From the NCBI GenBank assembly GCA_002707785.1, contig PANW01000042.1:153184-217183 (forward strand): a stretch of DNA of 64,000 bases, in the 5' to 3' direction. Shown here in pieces: positions 31,484-62,147 of the stretch. The position numbers and the translations under genes are program-made. This DNA is from Cellvibrionaceae bacterium. Its GTDB lineage: Bacteria; Pseudomonadota; Gammaproteobacteria; Pseudomonadales; Cellvibrionaceae. Numbering within the stretch: position 1 is the first letter of the stretch; every line of letters begins with the position of its first letter. The notes beneath the pieces are model-generated. The model searched no databases. It saw nothing but the letters and a program-made list of their open reading frames with translations, and was not told where the DNA came from.

Positions 31484-32176
31484 TTGCACCGCTTACTGAT
31501 TTTAATTGCGATAGGATGGGGACTGTGGGCCCTATCTAAACACCTAAAACAACAGTCACCCAAAGAGCGCAGCCGCCTGCTCTGGAAATACGCTGTCTAT
31601 GGCTTAGTGTTGGCCATCATTGCCTTAGCCATAACCGGAAAACTCCATCCGCTGGGGGCGGTCATCGCCGCTTTAATACCCTTTGTAAAAAGCTTGGCCG
31701 GGCTAGCCCTGCGCTTCTTTCCTGTGCTGAAATGGCTTAAACAACAGCCCTTTGCCAACCCCGTGATGACCACTCGATACTTGAGGGTAGTAGTAGACCA
31801 AAACCTAGGAAAGATGAGCGGAGAGGTATTAGCTGGAGAACATCAAGGCAAACCTTTGGCGCAATTGAGCCAAGATGAGCTCAACCAGCTTCTGACTTTT
31901 TACCGAAAACAGGATCCGGAATCGGCACAATTGCTGTCAGCCTACATGAGGCAGCGTTTTCAAGAACACTCTCAGGAACAGCAAACACACACCAGTAATG
32001 GGGATATGAGTGAGAGTGAAGCCCTACAAGTTCTTGGACTCAACAAAGGCGCCAACCACAAAGACATTGTTGCCGCCCATCGAAAACTGATCCAAAAGCT
32101 ACACCCTGATCGCGGCGGCAATGACTATCTAGCAGCCAAAATCAATCAGGCAAAAGACTGCTTACTGAAAACATGA
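31484..32176 (+). CDS. Membrane-anchored J-domain protein (Tim14/DjlA-like topology)
   Basis: C-terminal SEALQVLGLNKGANHKDIVAAHRKLIQKLHPDRGGNDYLAAKINQAKDCL with HPD; N-terminal TM segments; TTG start. Confidence 0.85.
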   Translation: MHRLLILIAIGWGLWALSKHLKQQSPKERSRLLWKYAVYGLVLAIIALAITGKLHPLGAVIAALIPFVKSLAGLALRFFPVLKWLKQQPFANPVMTTRYLRVVVDQNLGKMSGEVLAGEHQGKPLAQLSQDELNQLLTFYRKQDPESAQLLSAYMRQRFQEHSQEQQTHTSNGDMSESEALQVLGLNKGANHKDIVAAHRKLIQKLHPDRGGNDYLAAKINQAKDCLLKT

Positions 32177-41346: not shown

Positions 41347-42288
41347 TCAGGCCTTCAAGGGATCTTGTTTCGAACCGGCCTGATCGGCTTCCGACAGCAG
41401 CCGCCCCATGGTCGCGATATCGAGGAGCGCGCACATATGTTGCTTTACCGTGCCCGCTAGCCAAGGTCGTTTGGCGCGCTCTCCGCGCCATTTCACATCA
41501 TCAGGCTCCAAACTGATAGGTTGATTTACGGCATCCACCGCCAACCCCCAAGGCAGTCCGTTGATAGAAATTACATATTTGGCGGCATCCAAGAAAGAAT
41601 CTTGGTAGCGCTCAGGCATCACGAACTTGGCGGTGTTGATGGTTCGTATTTTGCCGACTGGAGTGGGCTGCAACCCCATGAACCATTCGGCCTGACCAAA
41701 CAAAGGCGTCAGCTCTTCGGTGAGGGGCTGAATTTGGCCCAACGCGATCAGTGGTACCGCCAGTGTTAGGCCCGCCACCTCAAACAACAGCACTTCAAAT
41801 CGTTCTTGAGCCCACTGCGGACGCCCATTGCTCAACCACCGCAGCCCATCGTCCAAATCCGCCTCAACACTAACATCATCCTCAAGCGCAACGGCATTCT
41901 CGGGCTCTCCATTGTCGGGCTCCGCATTCTGCGGCTTTGTTATCACTGGCGAGACTTTTAGCTCTGGAATCACAACCGGATTCTCGAGCTTCACCTCTGA
42001 CCTCACTTCTGGCTCTGCAATGACGGCCTGCTCAACTGCCAAGGGTTGAGTCTCTGTCTTTGTAGGCACGACTTTAGGGGGGGCTGACGTTAACAATTTG
42101 GCCAGCTTTTCCCGCGCCACCTGTTCTCGCTCGGGCGCATGCTCTATGGATGGTGCAGTTTCAGCCTGACGGCGGGTTTTAACTTGAGGAGCGGGTTCTT
42201 GAGCGTCTGGAGCTAACAGTTGTTGCGGCTCTTCGGCAACCAGTAAATCGTCAAAATACCCTTGAAGCGTCTCTTGTGGCGAGGTCAC
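41347..42288 (-). CDS. CheW-domain protein, ParP-like array-positioning protein
   Basis: Pro/Glu-rich N-terminal region plus CheW-like C-terminal domain; sits between cheW and a ParA-family gene. Confidence 0.82.
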   Translation of the reverse strand: MTSPQETLQGYFDDLLVAEEPQQLLAPDAQEPAPQVKTRRQAETAPSIEHAPEREQVAREKLAKLLTSAPPKVVPTKTETQPLAVEQAVIAEPEVRSEVKLENPVVIPELKVSPVITKPQNAEPDNGEPENAVALEDDVSVEADLDDGLRWLSNGRPQWAQERFEVLLFEVAGLTLAVPLIALGQIQPLTEELTPLFGQAEWFMGLQPTPVGKIRTINTAKFVMPERYQDSFLDAAKYVISINGLPWGLAVDAVNQPISLEPDDVKWRGERAKRPWLAGTVKQHMCALLDIATMGRLLSEADQAGSKQDPLKA

Positions 42289-43091
42289 AGAATGCCTCCC
42301 GCTTCGCTAAGCACGGGCTTTGCACTGCGCGCCAATTGCCACTTCAGCAACGAGCGATAAGCCTCTACCGCTCGACTATCGGGTTGAAACAAATGCGGAG
42401 GCACGCCCGCCTTACTCGCGTCTCTCAACTTCGTATCCACGGGCACTTTGCCTGGCCACACACAATCCGAATAAGTATTGCGTATCGCACGCAAACTATT
42501 GACCGATGCCTGAGTTCGGCGATCAAACATGGTAGGCACAACACTGTACGGCAAAGGATGCTTTCTCGATTTACTCATCATAGTGAGGGTTTGAACCATG
42601 CGCTCAAGCCCCTTTAACGCAAGAAATTCAGTTTGTACGGGGATCAATAGCTGCTGACAAGCTGCCAAAGCGTTGATCATAAGCACGCCCAACAGCGGCG
42701 GGCAATCGATCAAGACAATATCAAATTCATCTTTGATCATAGCCAGCGCCCTCCCCAGCACTAGCCCCATGCCATCACCACTGATCGCTTGACGCTCTAA
42801 TGTCGCGAGAGCCATAGCGGCAGGAATTAGTGAGACCCCCTCAAATTCGGTATCGACAATGCACTGTTGCACCAGTGCACTGGATAGCTCCGTTCGTCGC
42901 TGGAACAGAGTGAAAGTACTTAACTCAACCTGATCGGGTTCAAACCGAAAATAACTACTTAGGGAGCCGTGCGGATCTAGGTCCACCAGCAAAACACGCC
43001 TCCCCTGCTCGGCGCATAAACCGCCAAGGGAAACCGTTGTGGTGGTCTTTCCAACCCCACCCTTTTGATTTGCTACTGTCCAGACGAGCAA
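42285..43091 (-). CDS. ParA-family ATPase, ParC-like (chemotaxis array localisation)
   Basis: VANQKGGVGKTTTTVSLGGLCAEQGRRVLLVDLDPHGSLS; FDIVLIDCPPLLGVLMINAL; chemotaxis context. Confidence 0.92.
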   Translation of the reverse strand: MLVWTVANQKGGVGKTTTTVSLGGLCAEQGRRVLLVDLDPHGSLSSYFRFEPDQVELSTFTLFQRRTELSSALVQQCIVDTEFEGVSLIPAAMALATLERQAISGDGMGLVLGRALAMIKDEFDIVLIDCPPLLGVLMINALAACQQLLIPVQTEFLALKGLERMVQTLTMMSKSRKHPLPYSVVPTMFDRRTQASVNSLRAIRNTYSDCVWPGKVPVDTKLRDASKAGVPPHLFQPDSRAVEAYRSLLKWQLARSAKPVLSEAGGIL

Positions 43092-46420: not shown

Positions 46421-48691
46421 CTAGGCATGTCCGGCGTAACGTTTCAACATACTGGGCACATCCAAAATCAATGCAATGGTGCCATCTCCGGTGATAGTCG
46501 CACCAGCCATTCCGGGTGTGCCGTGCAACATTTTTCCAAGTGGCTTAATGACCACCTCTTCTTGACCAATCAACTGATCAACGACAAATCCAACACGCTG
46601 GGTTCCCACGGAGACTATCACTACATGAGCCTCTTCAGGGTTTGGATCATTCACGGCACCAGTCACTAGCCAACGTTTCAGATGAAAGATGGGTACAGCC
46701 TTTTCACGCACCGTGACACATTCTTGACCATCAACGATATTCGAACGAGTCAAATCCATATGGAAGATTTCGTTGACGCTCACCAGCGGCAAAGCGAAGG
46801 TTTGATTGCCCAGCATAATCATTAACGTCGGCATAATTGCCAGCGTCAAAGGCACCTTAATCGTGATTCGCGTGCCTTCACCCAAGTTAGAGTTGATCTC
46901 AATGGATCCATTCAATTGAGTAATTTTTGTTTTTACAACGTCCATGCCGACACCGCGACCAGACACATCCGAAATTTCTTTCTTAGTAGAAAATCCCGGC
47001 GCAAAGATCAGAGCAAAAGCTTCATTGTCCGATAAGCGGCCGGCGGCGTCTTCGTCCATCAAACCTTTTTCAACAGCTATTCCGCGCAGCTTATCTGGAT
47101 CCATACCACCGCCATCATCGGTGATAGATAACAGAATGTGATCGCCCTCTTGCTCAGCTGCCAAAATAACTTTGCCAACTCGAGGCTTTCCACTGGCCTC
47201 ACGCTCAGCAGGTAATTCAATACCATGATCCACAGAGTTTCGAACCAAGTGAACCAATGGATCTGCCAGAGCCTCTACTAGGTTTTTATCAAGATCAGTT
47301 TCTTCGCCTTGCAGCTCGAGGTTGATCTCTTTTTTCAGGTTCCGGGCCAGATCACGTACAACTCGAGGAAAGCGACCAAACACTTTCTTAATCGGTTGCA
47401 TTCGCGTCTTCATGACCGAGGTTTGCAAATCCGCCGTCACCACGTCGAGATTACCAACCGCTTTGGACAGAACTTCATCATTCGCTTTAAGACCCAAGCG
47501 TACTAGACGGTTTCTTACCAATACTAGCTCGCCGACCATATTCATAATATCGTCAAGACGCTGAGTGTCGACTCGCACGGTGGTCTCGCCAGCGGGGGCC
47601 GCAGCTTGAGCTGCACCGTCCCGACCGGCACCGCGAGCAGCTGCAGGTGCTGCTTTTGCAGCCGGTTTAGCGGCAGCTGGAGACTTAGCAGGCTCTTTCT
47701 GTACCGGCGCCGGTTCGGCACTAGCCTCGGCTTTACCCGCTGGAGCAGCAGCAGAGACTGTCGGACCTTTACCCTTGCCGTGCAAATCATCCAACAACTG
47801 TTCAAATTCGTCTTCAGATATTTGATTGTCACCCGAGGCACTAGCCGGTGCGGGTGAAGCCGGTACAGCAGAGGGTTTTGCAGCGGCACTCGGCCCCTTG
47901 CCACTACCGTGCAACTGATCCAGTAGTGCTTCGAACTCATCTTCTGAGATTTCATCATTGCCGGAGGCGCTTATTGGGGCCGCGGCTTTTTCCTCAGATT
48001 TAGCAGCTTCACCTGCAGCCGGCGCCTTACCTTTACCGTGCAGCTGATCCAGAAGCGCTTCAAATTCATCTTCGGTTATTTCGTCACCGTTGCCACCACC
48101 GGCACTCTCGACACTAACTGGAGCAGTTTCTGTCGCCGGCGCGGAAGGCTCTTCATCGGAAATCGCATCAAGAAGCTCTTCAAATTCTGAATCGGTAATA
48201 TCACCTTCACCGGAGCCACTCCCTAGAGATGATTCTGGAGCGCTTGGTGCTGGCTCATCGACAGCTGGGGCAGCTGCTTCGGCACCGCCCTCGACAAGAT
48301 CCGCCCCCGAAACCAAGCGCTCCAGTGCTGCCAACAATTCTGGCGACGCTGCGGCCACTTCAACTCGCTGTGAAACTTGCTCGAATTGATGATTGACGGT
48401 ATCCAGTGCTTGTAGCACGACATCCATCAGCTCTGACGTCACTGAGCGCTGCCCATTGCGGAGAATATCGAATAAGTTCTCAGTAACGTGACAGCATTCA
48501 ACCATTTCGTTGAGCTGTAAAAAACCTGCACCGCCCTTCACCGTGTGAAACCCACGGAAAATGGCATTCAACAGATCGTTATCATCCGGACGCTGTTCAA
48601 GATCTACCAACTGCTCGGACAGAAGCTCTAAAATTTCTCCAGCTTCTACCAAAAAGTCTTGTAGAATCTCTTCGTCATCTCCGAAACCCAT
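46421..48691 (-). CDS. cheA: Chemotaxis histidine kinase CheA with repeat-containing linker
   Basis: HPt FHTVKGGAGFL; LVRNSVDHGIELPAERE; DDGGGMD; CheW-like C-terminus. Confidence 0.96.
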   Translation of the reverse strand: MGFGDDEEILQDFLVEAGEILELLSEQLVDLEQRPDDNDLLNAIFRGFHTVKGGAGFLQLNEMVECCHVTENLFDILRNGQRSVTSELMDVVLQALDTVNHQFEQVSQRVEVAAASPELLAALERLVSGADLVEGGAEAAAPAVDEPAPSAPESSLGSGSGEGDITDSEFEELLDAISDEEPSAPATETAPVSVESAGGGNGDEITEDEFEALLDQLHGKGKAPAAGEAAKSEEKAAAPISASGNDEISEDEFEALLDQLHGSGKGPSAAAKPSAVPASPAPASASGDNQISEDEFEQLLDDLHGKGKGPTVSAAAPAGKAEASAEPAPVQKEPAKSPAAAKPAAKAAPAAARGAGRDGAAQAAAPAGETTVRVDTQRLDDIMNMVGELVLVRNRLVRLGLKANDEVLSKAVGNLDVVTADLQTSVMKTRMQPIKKVFGRFPRVVRDLARNLKKEINLELQGEETDLDKNLVEALADPLVHLVRNSVDHGIELPAEREASGKPRVGKVILAAEQEGDHILLSITDDGGGMDPDKLRGIAVEKGLMDEDAAGRLSDNEAFALIFAPGFSTKKEISDVSGRGVGMDVVKTKITQLNGSIEINSNLGEGTRITIKVPLTLAIMPTLMIMLGNQTFALPLVSVNEIFHMDLTRSNIVDGQECVTVREKAVPIFHLKRWLVTGAVNDPNPEEAHVVIVSVGTQRVGFVVDQLIGQEEVVIKPLGKMLHGTPGMAGATITGDGTIALILDVPSMLKRYAGHA

Positions 48692-48713: not shown

Positions 48714-49514
48714 TCAGAAACCCAAGCTCGACAATAAGTCATCAACGTCATCTTGACCTGAAACTACATCATCACGTTTATCGGCGTGTATTTGCGGGCC
48801 TTCAGCTTCAACACTTTCGGCCTCCGCTCCCGCCTTGGTTTCTTTATCGGCCTCATCAGCCAAACCTGTAATCTCTTCTACTTGGCCGGCAATACGCACC
48901 AAGTTGACCAGACTTTCCTCAACTTCGCGAATCAAGCCAATCACGCGCTTTAGCACCTGGCCGGTTAAATCTTGAAAACCTTGCTCGAGAATAATGTCTT
49001 GTAGATTCTTACTCAGCTCACCGGTACCGTCGCGCATATCCCCTAAAAAGGAATCCATACGCTTGTAAACTTCTCGAAATTCATCCGCTGTCATTTCTCG
49101 ACGTTTCAATCGGCCCCATTCTTGATGTAAAGCCGCAGCCTCCTGGCCGAGATTAAGCGCGATCGGAGCAGATGCCTCCACCATATCCATGGTTTTATCC
49201 GCAGCTGACTGAGTCGTTTCGATCACATAGTTCAAACGATCGGAAGCGTCTTGAATTTCAGAAGAATCAATATCTGGGGGGTCGGCGTTAAGATCGCCGT
49301 CTACGTGAAAGTTAACGATGGCACTGTGTAAACCGCGAGTCAGTTGCCCTACCGCGGTAAACATGTTTCGATCGCGCACGCTAACAAGCTGTTCTATCAG
49401 TTGCGAAGCTCCTTCAAGATCATCGCTTGTCAGCTTTTCAGAGAGTAATTTGGCACAATCGCGAAGCTCTTGAACAAACTCCTGACTACTGTGCAGCTCT
49501 GGTTGTATTTCCAT
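48714..49514 (-). CDS. cheZ: Protein phosphatase CheZ
   Basis: ILEQGFQDLTGQVLKRVI; C-terminal CheY-binding peptide QDDVDDLLSSLGF. Confidence 0.95.
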   Translation of the reverse strand: MEIQPELHSSQEFVQELRDCAKLLSEKLTSDDLEGASQLIEQLVSVRDRNMFTAVGQLTRGLHSAIVNFHVDGDLNADPPDIDSSEIQDASDRLNYVIETTQSAADKTMDMVEASAPIALNLGQEAAALHQEWGRLKRREMTADEFREVYKRMDSFLGDMRDGTGELSKNLQDIILEQGFQDLTGQVLKRVIGLIREVEESLVNLVRIAGQVEEITGLADEADKETKAGAEAESVEAEGPQIHADKRDDVVSGQDDVDDLLSSLGF

Positions 49515-49539: not shown

Positions 49540-49926
49540 TTATCCGTCGACGCGGTTGAAGATCTTTTCGATCTTTTCCTTCAGGGCAGCCGCAGTAAAG
49601 GGTTTGACTACGTAGCCATTAACGCCAGATTGCGCCGCCTCAATGATCTGATCGCGTTTAGCTTCAGCGGTCACCATCAACACAGGCAAGGAGGAGAGTT
49701 TTTCATCGGCTCTTACGGCCTTCAATAGATCAATGCCCGTCATGCCAGGCATATTCCAATCCGTTACCAAGAAATCAAAATCACCGCTCTTAAGCATCGG
49801 AAGCGCCGTTAGCCCATCGTCAGCCTCTTGAGTGTTGGTAAATCCCAAGTCTCGTAACAGGTTTTTAATAATCCGACGCATCGTCGAGAAATCATCGACA
49901 ATGAGGATTTTCATGTTTTTATCCAA
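49540..49926 (-). CDS. cheY: Chemotaxis response regulator CheY
   Basis: [53 protein letters not shown]. Confidence 0.97.
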
Positions 49927-60697: not shown

Positions 60698-61138
60698 TCA
60701 ACGCAAACGCTTGATGCGTTCCGCTGGACTGATGACATCGGTCATGCGAATACCGAATTTTTCATTCACTACAACCACTTCGCCATGAGCGATCAAAGTA
60801 CCATTCACCAGCACATCCAATGGTTCACCGGCCAAACGATCCAACTCGATCACCGAGCCCTGATTGAGCTGCAGTAGGTTGCGAATCGTAATTGACGTAG
60901 AACCCACTTCCATGGCAATGGTTACAGGGATGTCCAGAATCACATCTAAGTCCGGGTTGTCACCGGTTAGTACCGGGGATTCATCTTGCAACTCTTCCAG
61001 CTCGACCTGAGAAACATCAGCGCCGTCCGCACCAGCATCACCGCCTTCTGCTTCGGCCATAGCCGCGGCCCACTCATCGGCCATGGCATCTTGATTCACG
61101 TCTTCGCCATTGTCATCGATCACATCTTCGTCACTCAT
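60698..61138 (-). CDS. fliN: Flagellar motor switch protein FliN
   Basis: LDVILDIPVTIAMEVGSTSITIRNLLQLNQGSVIELDRLAGEPLDVLVNGTLIAHGEVVVVNEKFGIRMTDVIS. Confidence 0.97.
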   Translation of the reverse strand: MSDEDVIDDNGEDVNQDAMADEWAAAMAEAEGGDAGADGADVSQVELEELQDESPVLTGDNPDLDVILDIPVTIAMEVGSTSITIRNLLQLNQGSVIELDRLAGEPLDVLVNGTLIAHGEVVVVNEKFGIRMTDVISPAERIKRLR

Positions 61139-62147
61139 CTTTGTTTTCCTCAATCACTTCTGGCTTGGTGGACAGGTTTTGATATTTCGATCGATCAATC
61201 AATTCGGAAACCTTGAGCGCTAAGTTGCCATTGGACTGTCCTAACTCACTCCGAAACATCGGTACTTTATTGGCGGTGACAACCTGAAATTCAGGCAATT
61301 CAATTGGAACCACGTCACCAGTCTTCATTTCAACGATATCGCGCAAAGTAATTTCTTTGTGTGCCAGCTCGCACTCAAGCTCCACCTTGGCTTCCATCAC
61401 ATCATTGCGCAACGCAACAACCCAGCGATCATCAAGTTCATCGGTATCGGTTTGTAGGCCAGCATCCAGCATCTCTCGGATAGGCTCAATCATGGAATAT
61501 GGAATGGTGATGTGTAGGTCGCCACCACCACCATCCAACTCGACATGAAAAGTGCTAACCACTACCACTTCACTAGGACTGACGATATTCGCCATCGAGG
61601 GATTAACTTCTGAATTCACGTACTCAAAATCAATTGGCATAACTGCCTTCCAGGCTTCTGCCAAATCTACGAAGGCTTGATCGAGCACCATTTGCACAAC
61701 TCGCAGCTCTGTAGGGGTAAATTCACGCCCTTCGATTTTGGCGTGTCGACCGTCGCCACCAAAAAAATTGTCGACCAATTTGAACACTAGTTTGGCGTCT
61801 AAGATAATAAGAGCGGTGCCACGTAGAGGTCGAAATTTGACCATATTGAGACTGGTGGGCACATAGAGCGTGTGCACATATTCGCCGAACTTCTGGATCT
61901 GAACACCGCCCAGAGAGACATCCGCTGAACGGCGCAGCAGGTTAAACATACTTATGCGAGTATAACGAGCAAAACGCTCATTAATCATTTCCAACGTAGG
62001 CATTCGCCCACGAACTATTCGATCCTGACTGGTTAAATCATAGGATTTAACCGAACCCGGATCCTCATCGCTCTCCGTTTCGACATCGCCATCATCGACG
62101 CCGTGGAGTAACGCATCAATCTCGTCTTGTGACAGTAGATCTTGCAC
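61131..62147 (-). CDS. fliM: Flagellar motor switch protein FliM
   Basis: LLSQDEIDALLHGV N-terminal CheY-binding peptide; RMPTLEMINERFARYTRISMFNLLRRSADV. Confidence 0.97.
   Translation of the reverse strand: MQDLLSQDEIDALLHGVDDGDVETESDEDPGSVKSYDLTSQDRIVRGRMPTLEMINERFARYTRISMFNLLRRSADVSLGGVQIQKFGEYVHTLYVPTSLNMVKFRPLRGTALIILDAKLVFKLVDNFFGGDGRHAKIEGREFTPTELRVVQMVLDQAFVDLAEAWKAVMPIDFEYVNSEVNPSMANIVSPSEVVVVSTFHVELDGGGGDLHITIPYSMIEPIREMLDAGLQTDTDELDDRWVVALRNDVMEAKVELECELAHKEITLRDIVEMKTGDVVPIELPEFQVVTANKVPMFRSELGQSNGNLALKVSELIDRSKYQNLSTKPEVIEENKDE

Follow-up and report, generated by a model that had tools for sequence, protein, structure and literature searches.

Repeated motifs in the P1–P3 linker of an F6-type CheA resemble the CheY-binding peptides of FliM and CheZ and may serve as CheY docking sites in place of P2

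Here, we show by alignment, profile searches and structure prediction that the linker between the P1 and P3 domains of a CheA encoded in a 64,000-nucleotide stretch of DNA from a Cellvibrionaceae bacterium (the window) carries four copies of a short motif, and that these repeats are the conserved part of the linker. The motif resembles the N-terminus of FliM and the C-terminus of CheZ, both of which are known CheY ligands. The computational evidence establishes the repeats and their conservation, and also that the linker has no P2 fold. Judged from the sequences, the best-supported explanation is that the repeats act as multivalent linear CheY docking sites that replace P2, a reading that we regard as probable with moderate confidence.

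The cheA gene (46421–48691, minus strand) is an intact open reading frame of 756 residues, for which the reading frame, Pfam and AlphaFold together give the layout P1/Hpt (residues 8–99), a disordered linker of 235 residues (about 135–370; 47582–48289, minus strand, delimited by AlphaFold with 77 sequences), P3 (370–429), P4 (477–616) and a CheW-like P5 (623–751). Pfam assigns Hpt, H-kinase_dim, HATPase and CheW to these four ranges, and finds no credible domain between Hpt and H-kinase_dim. The gene stands in the order flhF-fleN-fliA-cheY-cheZ-cheA-cheB-motC-motD-parC-parP-cheW, which recurs in most homologous loci, and with its P1, P3, P4 and P5 core in such a cluster this CheA fits chemosensory class F6, a label that follows published work (PMC7184735) and general background.

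The four motifs of the preliminary description are all present exactly as written in this one frame, as R1 (DITDSEFEELLDAIS, residues 164–178, 48158–48202), R2 (EITEDEFEALLDQLHG, residues 204–219, 48035–48082), R3 (EISEDEFEALLDQLHG, residues 247–262, 47906–47953) and R4 (QISEDEFEQLLDDLHG, residues 290–305, 47777–47824), all on the minus strand. They are 14–16 residues long and form two classes with separate consensus sequences, R1 being a variant without the HG found in R2–R4. All four were identified from both the reading frame and DNA repeat detection, and the DNA repeats, recovered independently, start 129, 129 and 120 nt apart, close to the intervals of about 130 nt described before; Tandem Repeats Finder did not call the CheA repeats. 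Over 14 codons, R2 and R3 differ by one amino-acid-changing and six synonymous differences, and this mostly synonymous divergence indicates old copies that are kept alike by selection on the protein. A recent tandem duplication or an assembly artefact is ruled out by the same divergence together with the presence of the same copies in independent genomes. Throughout the genome a repeat HMM, whose training sequences included the window's own copies, gave four matches (E 4.5e-14 to 6.3e-8), all in the window CheA, with nothing else below E 0.8 and nothing convincing outside CheA.

AlphaFold with the 77-sequence alignment predicts P1 and P3–P5 at high confidence and leaves residues 135–370 mostly at pLDDT below 50. 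Short helices are modelled at 167–178 (R1), 207–217 (R2) and 250–260 (R3), the last with a block mean pLDDT of up to 84, and R4 is non-helical at pLDDT below 50. The linker of the window CheA contains no beta-alpha-beta-beta-alpha-beta fold as in P2, and no strand at all in the model. A second CheA from this genome, modelled as a positive control with only 11 sequences, does show P2-like folds between P1 and P3, namely a beta-alpha-beta-beta-alpha-beta domain at 174–258 and a second alpha/beta domain at 283–367. A hidden P2 in the window linker is thereby ruled out, which upholds the earlier view that this CheA has no P2 domain. Foldseek returned CheA P3–P4–P5 structures as the best PDB matches to the model. 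Pfam is insensitive to P2, which it missed in 13 CheAs of other classes, so its silence on the window CheA is uninformative; the insensitivity of the Pfam P2 models has been reported before (PMC10542144). The control CheA (L218; G000:C38:217867-233518) lies just outside the window as an 868-aa frame, and its two P2-like alpha/beta domains follow one another.

P2 is missing from more than half of all CheA proteins (PMC10542144). Recent papers still depict F6 CheAs, those of Pseudomonas and Vibrio among them, with a P2 domain (PMC11978298, PMC7534058). The P2 or CheY-binding domain of the Pfam families occupies the same place between P1 and P3 and has the same proposed job as the repeats; it is one folded domain, whereas in the window CheA the linker is disordered, has no such fold and carries short peptides instead.

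How strongly are the repeats conserved? In the 77-CheA alignment, P1 and P3–P5 of the 76 homologues have mean identities to the window CheA of 0.68 and 0.71, and the spacers 0.17. The repeats score 0.75 (R2), 0.67 (R4), 0.48 (R1) and 0.21 (R3), the low value of R3 arising because some genomes carry fewer repeats. In R4, F296 and L300 do not vary among the 77 sequences, and a few Pro and Gly columns outside the repeats also exceed 60%. Within the motif, F and LL are nearly invariant and D, H and G are strongly kept, and the spacing between copies is free, ranging from 28 to 120 residues.

In a first set of 80 named loci (L001–L080), mostly from Cellvibrionales and from relatives of Pseudomonas, Marinobacter and Marinomonas, every CheA has 1–4 copies by a fixed regular expression, in a scan that was seeded partly with repeat peptides and is thus biased towards repeat-bearing CheAs. 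An unbiased set (L148–L227) was picked from 184 gammaproteobacterial genomes by the P3–P5 core alone. It holds 65 F6-type loci (L148–L212), two of them without a readable linker (L161, cut at a contig end, and L204, masked); the regular expression matches 60 of the readable ones, and L166, L192 and L211 have diverged copies seen by eye. All readable F6-type linkers among these 65 divergent gammaproteobacterial loci thus have at least one copy, degenerate in one, and none of the 15 loci of other CheA classes (L213–L227) matches the regular expression. In 299 genomes of a phylum sample, a motif HMM gave one weak match outside the class, all others falling within it. The earlier suggestion that related repeats may exist in other CheAs is therefore borne out across the F6 class, with 1–4 copies in each.

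Several loci deserve separate mention. The repeat motif is kept in L207 and L208 (G020, G152) and in L212 (G131), F6-type clusters that have no detected CheZ close to CheA, so a neighbouring CheZ is no requirement for the repeats. L211 (G023) has only the degenerate repeats DDDLEAILDQVHG and LDFEALLDAAHG, Ala at CheY position 117 and a second CheA in the cluster, and may have lost or replaced the docking mode. In the CheAs of probable Vibrio loci the linker could not accommodate P2, and its conservation lies mainly in the repeats; the CheY of these loci is identical at 126 of 130 residues to PDB 3TO5, which we take to be V. cholerae CheY3. The probable Vibrio loci L336–L342 also show, in these CheAs only, a conserved 'GxGPS-x-EELD-x-ATKPA' after the third and last repeat, possibly a separate LID (Localization and Inheritance Domain) element.

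The likeness of the repeats to known CheY ligands can be read within the window itself. FliM (61131–62147) starts with MQDLLSQDEIDALLHGV and carries the N-terminal CheY-binding motif LLSQDEIDALL at 62106–62138 (minus strand). CheZ (48714–49514, minus strand) ends, as noted before and read here from the reading frame, in the 13 residues QDDVDDLLSSLGF (48717–48755) of the CheY-binding tail type, and aligns to its last residue with the CheZ chain of the CheY–CheZ structure 1KMI. In register, CheA EISEDEFEALLDQLHG aligns with FliM LLSQDEIDALLHG and with CheZ (GQ)DDVDDLLSSLGF; the first half of the repeat is FliM-like, and the second half has the CheZ-type LL-x-x-L. The spacing that the preliminary description saw in the repeats and the CheZ tail falls into a common register, D-[DE]-phi-[DE]-x-L-L-x-x-L; the CheZ peptide is single, sits at the extreme C-terminus and ends in GF, whereas the CheA repeats are internal and end in HG. 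With the 'EIDALL' motif of FliM/FliY the repeats share the register phi-[ST]-x-[DE]-E-phi-[DE]-x-L-L (LLSQDEIDALL in FliM, EISEDEFEALL in CheA), and against [LI][LI]SQ[DE]E[IV]DALL the repeat core matches with I/V replaced by F and D by E, ranking high on the FliM profile without being identical. The FliM/FliY motif is single and N-terminal on a switch protein, whereas the CheA motif is internal, repeated, has F for I/V and continues in D-x-L-H-G. This FliM likeness, which the preliminary description did not mention beside that of the CheZ tail, is the best support for CheY docking, and the EIDALL motif of FliM binds the alpha4/alpha5 groove of CheY (PMC9126983).

Window reading frames of at least 90 aa contain seven matches to [ED]-phi-[DE]-x-L-[LIM]: one in each CheA repeat, one at the N-terminus of FliM and one at each of the C-termini of CheZ and CheW. 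The repeat HMM is too specific to CheA to find FliM, and fixed profiles were therefore used for the comparison. A BLOSUM-smoothed profile was derived solely from FliM N-termini and run against every peptide of 145 loci. In 137 of them a CheA linker peptide came within the top three among thousands of peptides (first in 43, second in 79, third in 15), the second places, as listed, coming behind the CheZ tail; R3 is the best match within the window CheA. When linkers were shuffled, 0.045% of trials scored as high as the observed median, and the CheA peptide outscores every chemotaxis or flagellar protein other than CheZ and FliM at 123 of 132 loci. A stricter FliM-shared pattern, written after both peptides had been seen, is absent from 418,250 residues of other che/fla proteins and occurs three times in 665,433 residues of other reading frames, background rates that come from the fetched loci only. 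In the reverse direction, a CheA-repeat profile places the FliM N-termini in the top 0.01% of 402,516 background 14-mers.

Part of this likeness is less specific. N-cap signatures of the form 'phi-[ST]-x-x-E-phi' are common in helices; an internal helix of CheZ (EMTADEFREVYKRM) comes near FliM in its score on the CheA-repeat profile, and an unrelated DnaJ-like protein (31862, QLSQDELNQLL) slightly outscores the repeats against the FliM profile, so that a shared helix-capping signature explains some of the resemblance. The Ala before LL, invariant in FliM, is present in only about half of the CheA copies, and the C-terminal LHG(KG) of R2–R4 has no in-register counterpart in the FliM or CheZ peptide. 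Neither a repeat nor the FliM N-terminus, used as a query against PDB sequences, returned a relative. The DnaJ-like protein, of 230 aa (31484–32176, plus strand), has a C-terminal DnaJ-like HPD segment and holds AQLSQDELNQLL; its likeness to the FliM profile is probably due to chance.

On the side of the proposed partner, the window CheY (49540–49926, minus strand) reads R92, Q94, V103 and K117 in E. coli numbering. An F6 CheY recruited by a P2-bearing F7 CheA was found changed at the P2-facing positions 92, 94 and 103, with the charge reversed at 117, a position in the helix that meets FliM, although its CheZ partner moved along with it (PMC7184735). These changes are in keeping with a CheY face whose contact in F6 CheA is not P2. 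In 44 of 52 genomes CheY has a basic residue at 117, and the repeats are weaker in the other eight (Mann-Whitney p 0.0007). When 36 variable CheY columns were compared with repeat quality in 47 genomes, with CheA and CheY divergence regressed out, the two strongest associations were at 114 and 117 (residual p 0.0006 and 0.0019), where alpha5 begins on the FliM-binding face. On the CheA tree, parsimony requires six or more changes to explain the loss of a basic 117, and well-supported branches force at least three of these. The covariation is small, involves few events, has weak backbone support and is not fully corrected for phylogeny, and we take it as suggestive only. FliM N-termini hardly vary, so repeat–FliM covariation could not be used.

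How might such docking work? From the above we infer CheY as the partner, the docking face and an effect on phosphotransfer. Each repeat would be a short linear motif that forms a small amphipathic helix upon binding the alpha4-beta5-alpha5 face of CheY, in a mode like that of the FliM N-terminus and the CheZ C-terminus, and the disordered P1–P3 linker would string these sites together, four per CheA, eight per dimer and very many per array. The repeats could then do the job of the folded P2 of E. coli by raising the local CheY concentration beside the phosphorylated P1 histidine, and perhaps also concentrate the CheB receiver. If the likeness to FliM and CheZ extends to a preference for CheY-P, the repeats might, unlike P2, hold or buffer CheY-P at the array. 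A wider proposal, tentative and to our mind slightly short of even, is that F6, a major class of CheA that acts as the flagellar kinase in Vibrio, in Pseudomonas and in most gammaproteobacteria with polar flagella, replaced the folded P2 by a repeated motor- and phosphatase-type CheY ligand. One peptide code would then set the kinase, the motor and the phosphatase in competition for CheY, and CheY-P would be buffered by the repeats at the polar array beside the flagellum.

The earlier proposal of linear CheY docking in place of P2 is partly supported: it withstood the tests applied, on the repeats, the missing P2 fold and the FliM/CheZ likeness, and is weakened by the generic part of the helix-start signature and by ParP binding reported for the same linker. 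A CheA-LID located before P3 is reported to bind ParP and said to occur only with ParC and ParP (PMC5706961, PMC7534058), the binding being to the ParP AIF domain in Vibrio (PMC5706961). The repeats lie in the linker before P3 as well, in the window as in the probable Vibrio homologues, and share with the LID of ParC/ParP systems the gene neighbourhood and the group of polarly flagellated bacteria. ParP, alone or shared with CheY, is a serious rival and the main one: the repeats could be all or part of the LID, each helix binding the AIF domain and tying CheA to the polar ParC–ParP anchor, with avidity from the copies. The window has both genes downstream of cheA, parC (42285–43091, minus strand), a ParA-like ATPase and by a wide margin the best ParC-search match in the genome, and parP (41347–42288, minus strand), with a long N-terminus, a CheW-like AIF domain and 212 bits to the ParP profile; in probable Vibrio the LID probably overlaps the repeats, since these are the main conserved feature of the linker. 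ParC was searched in 24 genomes (true ParC at least 201 bits) and ParP in 20 genomes with a 34-sequence profile (clear ParP at least 158 bits). G008, G172, G020, G152 and G137 have no ParC, only general ParA at up to 126 bits, and no ParP, only CheW-level matches of 30–48 bits that are CheW by sequence in G008, G152, G137 and G172. All five keep recognisable CheA repeats, so the LID rule 'only with ParC and ParP' does not hold for them. G001, G023 and G154 also lack ParC; G001 has four copies and G154 strong motif matches in a masked locus, and G023 has only the degenerate ones. These ParC-less genomes are 95–100% complete, except for G001 at 91%. The LID is defined by ParP binding and co-occurrence with ParC/ParP, whereas the repeats persist without either, which argues against ParP as their only reason; CheY and FliM are always present, unlike ParC/ParP, and on the ParP reading the likeness to two CheY ligands would be a coincidence. 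As the explanation of the repeats, ParP binding seems to us rather unlikely.

The two partners might also be combined, with every repeat binding CheY and ParP or with the copies divided between them (R1 without HG, R2–R4 with it), so that tethering and docking compete or are split. Such dual use would accommodate the two repeat classes, the 1–4 copies, the likeness to FliM and CheZ and the reports that ParP binds here; it is the least economical reading, no difference in copy number or class was found to track ParC/ParP, and we hold it to be quite improbable. Generic amphipathic helices with another role, either binding P1, P4 or CheW domains intramolecularly to gate the kinase or serving as helix-capped spacers that set linker length, appear similarly doubtful. 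A helix-start signature is indeed common in unrelated proteins and AlphaFold draws short helices only; the constraint on F, LL, D, H and G goes far beyond the needs of capping, however, and both the free spacing and the absence of the motif from other CheA classes speak against this role.

CheY docking by the repeats remains the reading that we prefer. The region itself is already known, as it overlaps the LID linker; no earlier description of CheY-binding repeats in CheA was found in the open-access literature, nor one of the repeat anatomy, its independence of ParC/ParP or its likeness to motor- and phosphatase-type CheY ligands. If the repeats are docking sites, kinase, motor and phosphatase would share one short code, evolution could tune how many sites a CheA has (1–4 found), and the region known as LID would gain a second partner.

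Finally, two further sequences are of note. In G172 (L192), CheA has three near-identical copies DG-[ED]-ITDDEFEALLNQR that have lost L-x-H-G and kept the FliM-like half; the units, of about 30 residues ('LPEGVDPDG-[ED]-ITDDEFEALLNQR'), are the most FliM-like version of the repeat. ParP N-termini (41347–42288 in the window, and homologues in L148–L206) carry a helix-like 'AL-x-x-Y-[LF]-[DE]-x-L-L', for example ALGAYLDALL, with TLQGYFDDLL in the window, which resembles EIDALL/EFEALL, sits where ParC binding is reported and may be a ParC-binding element.
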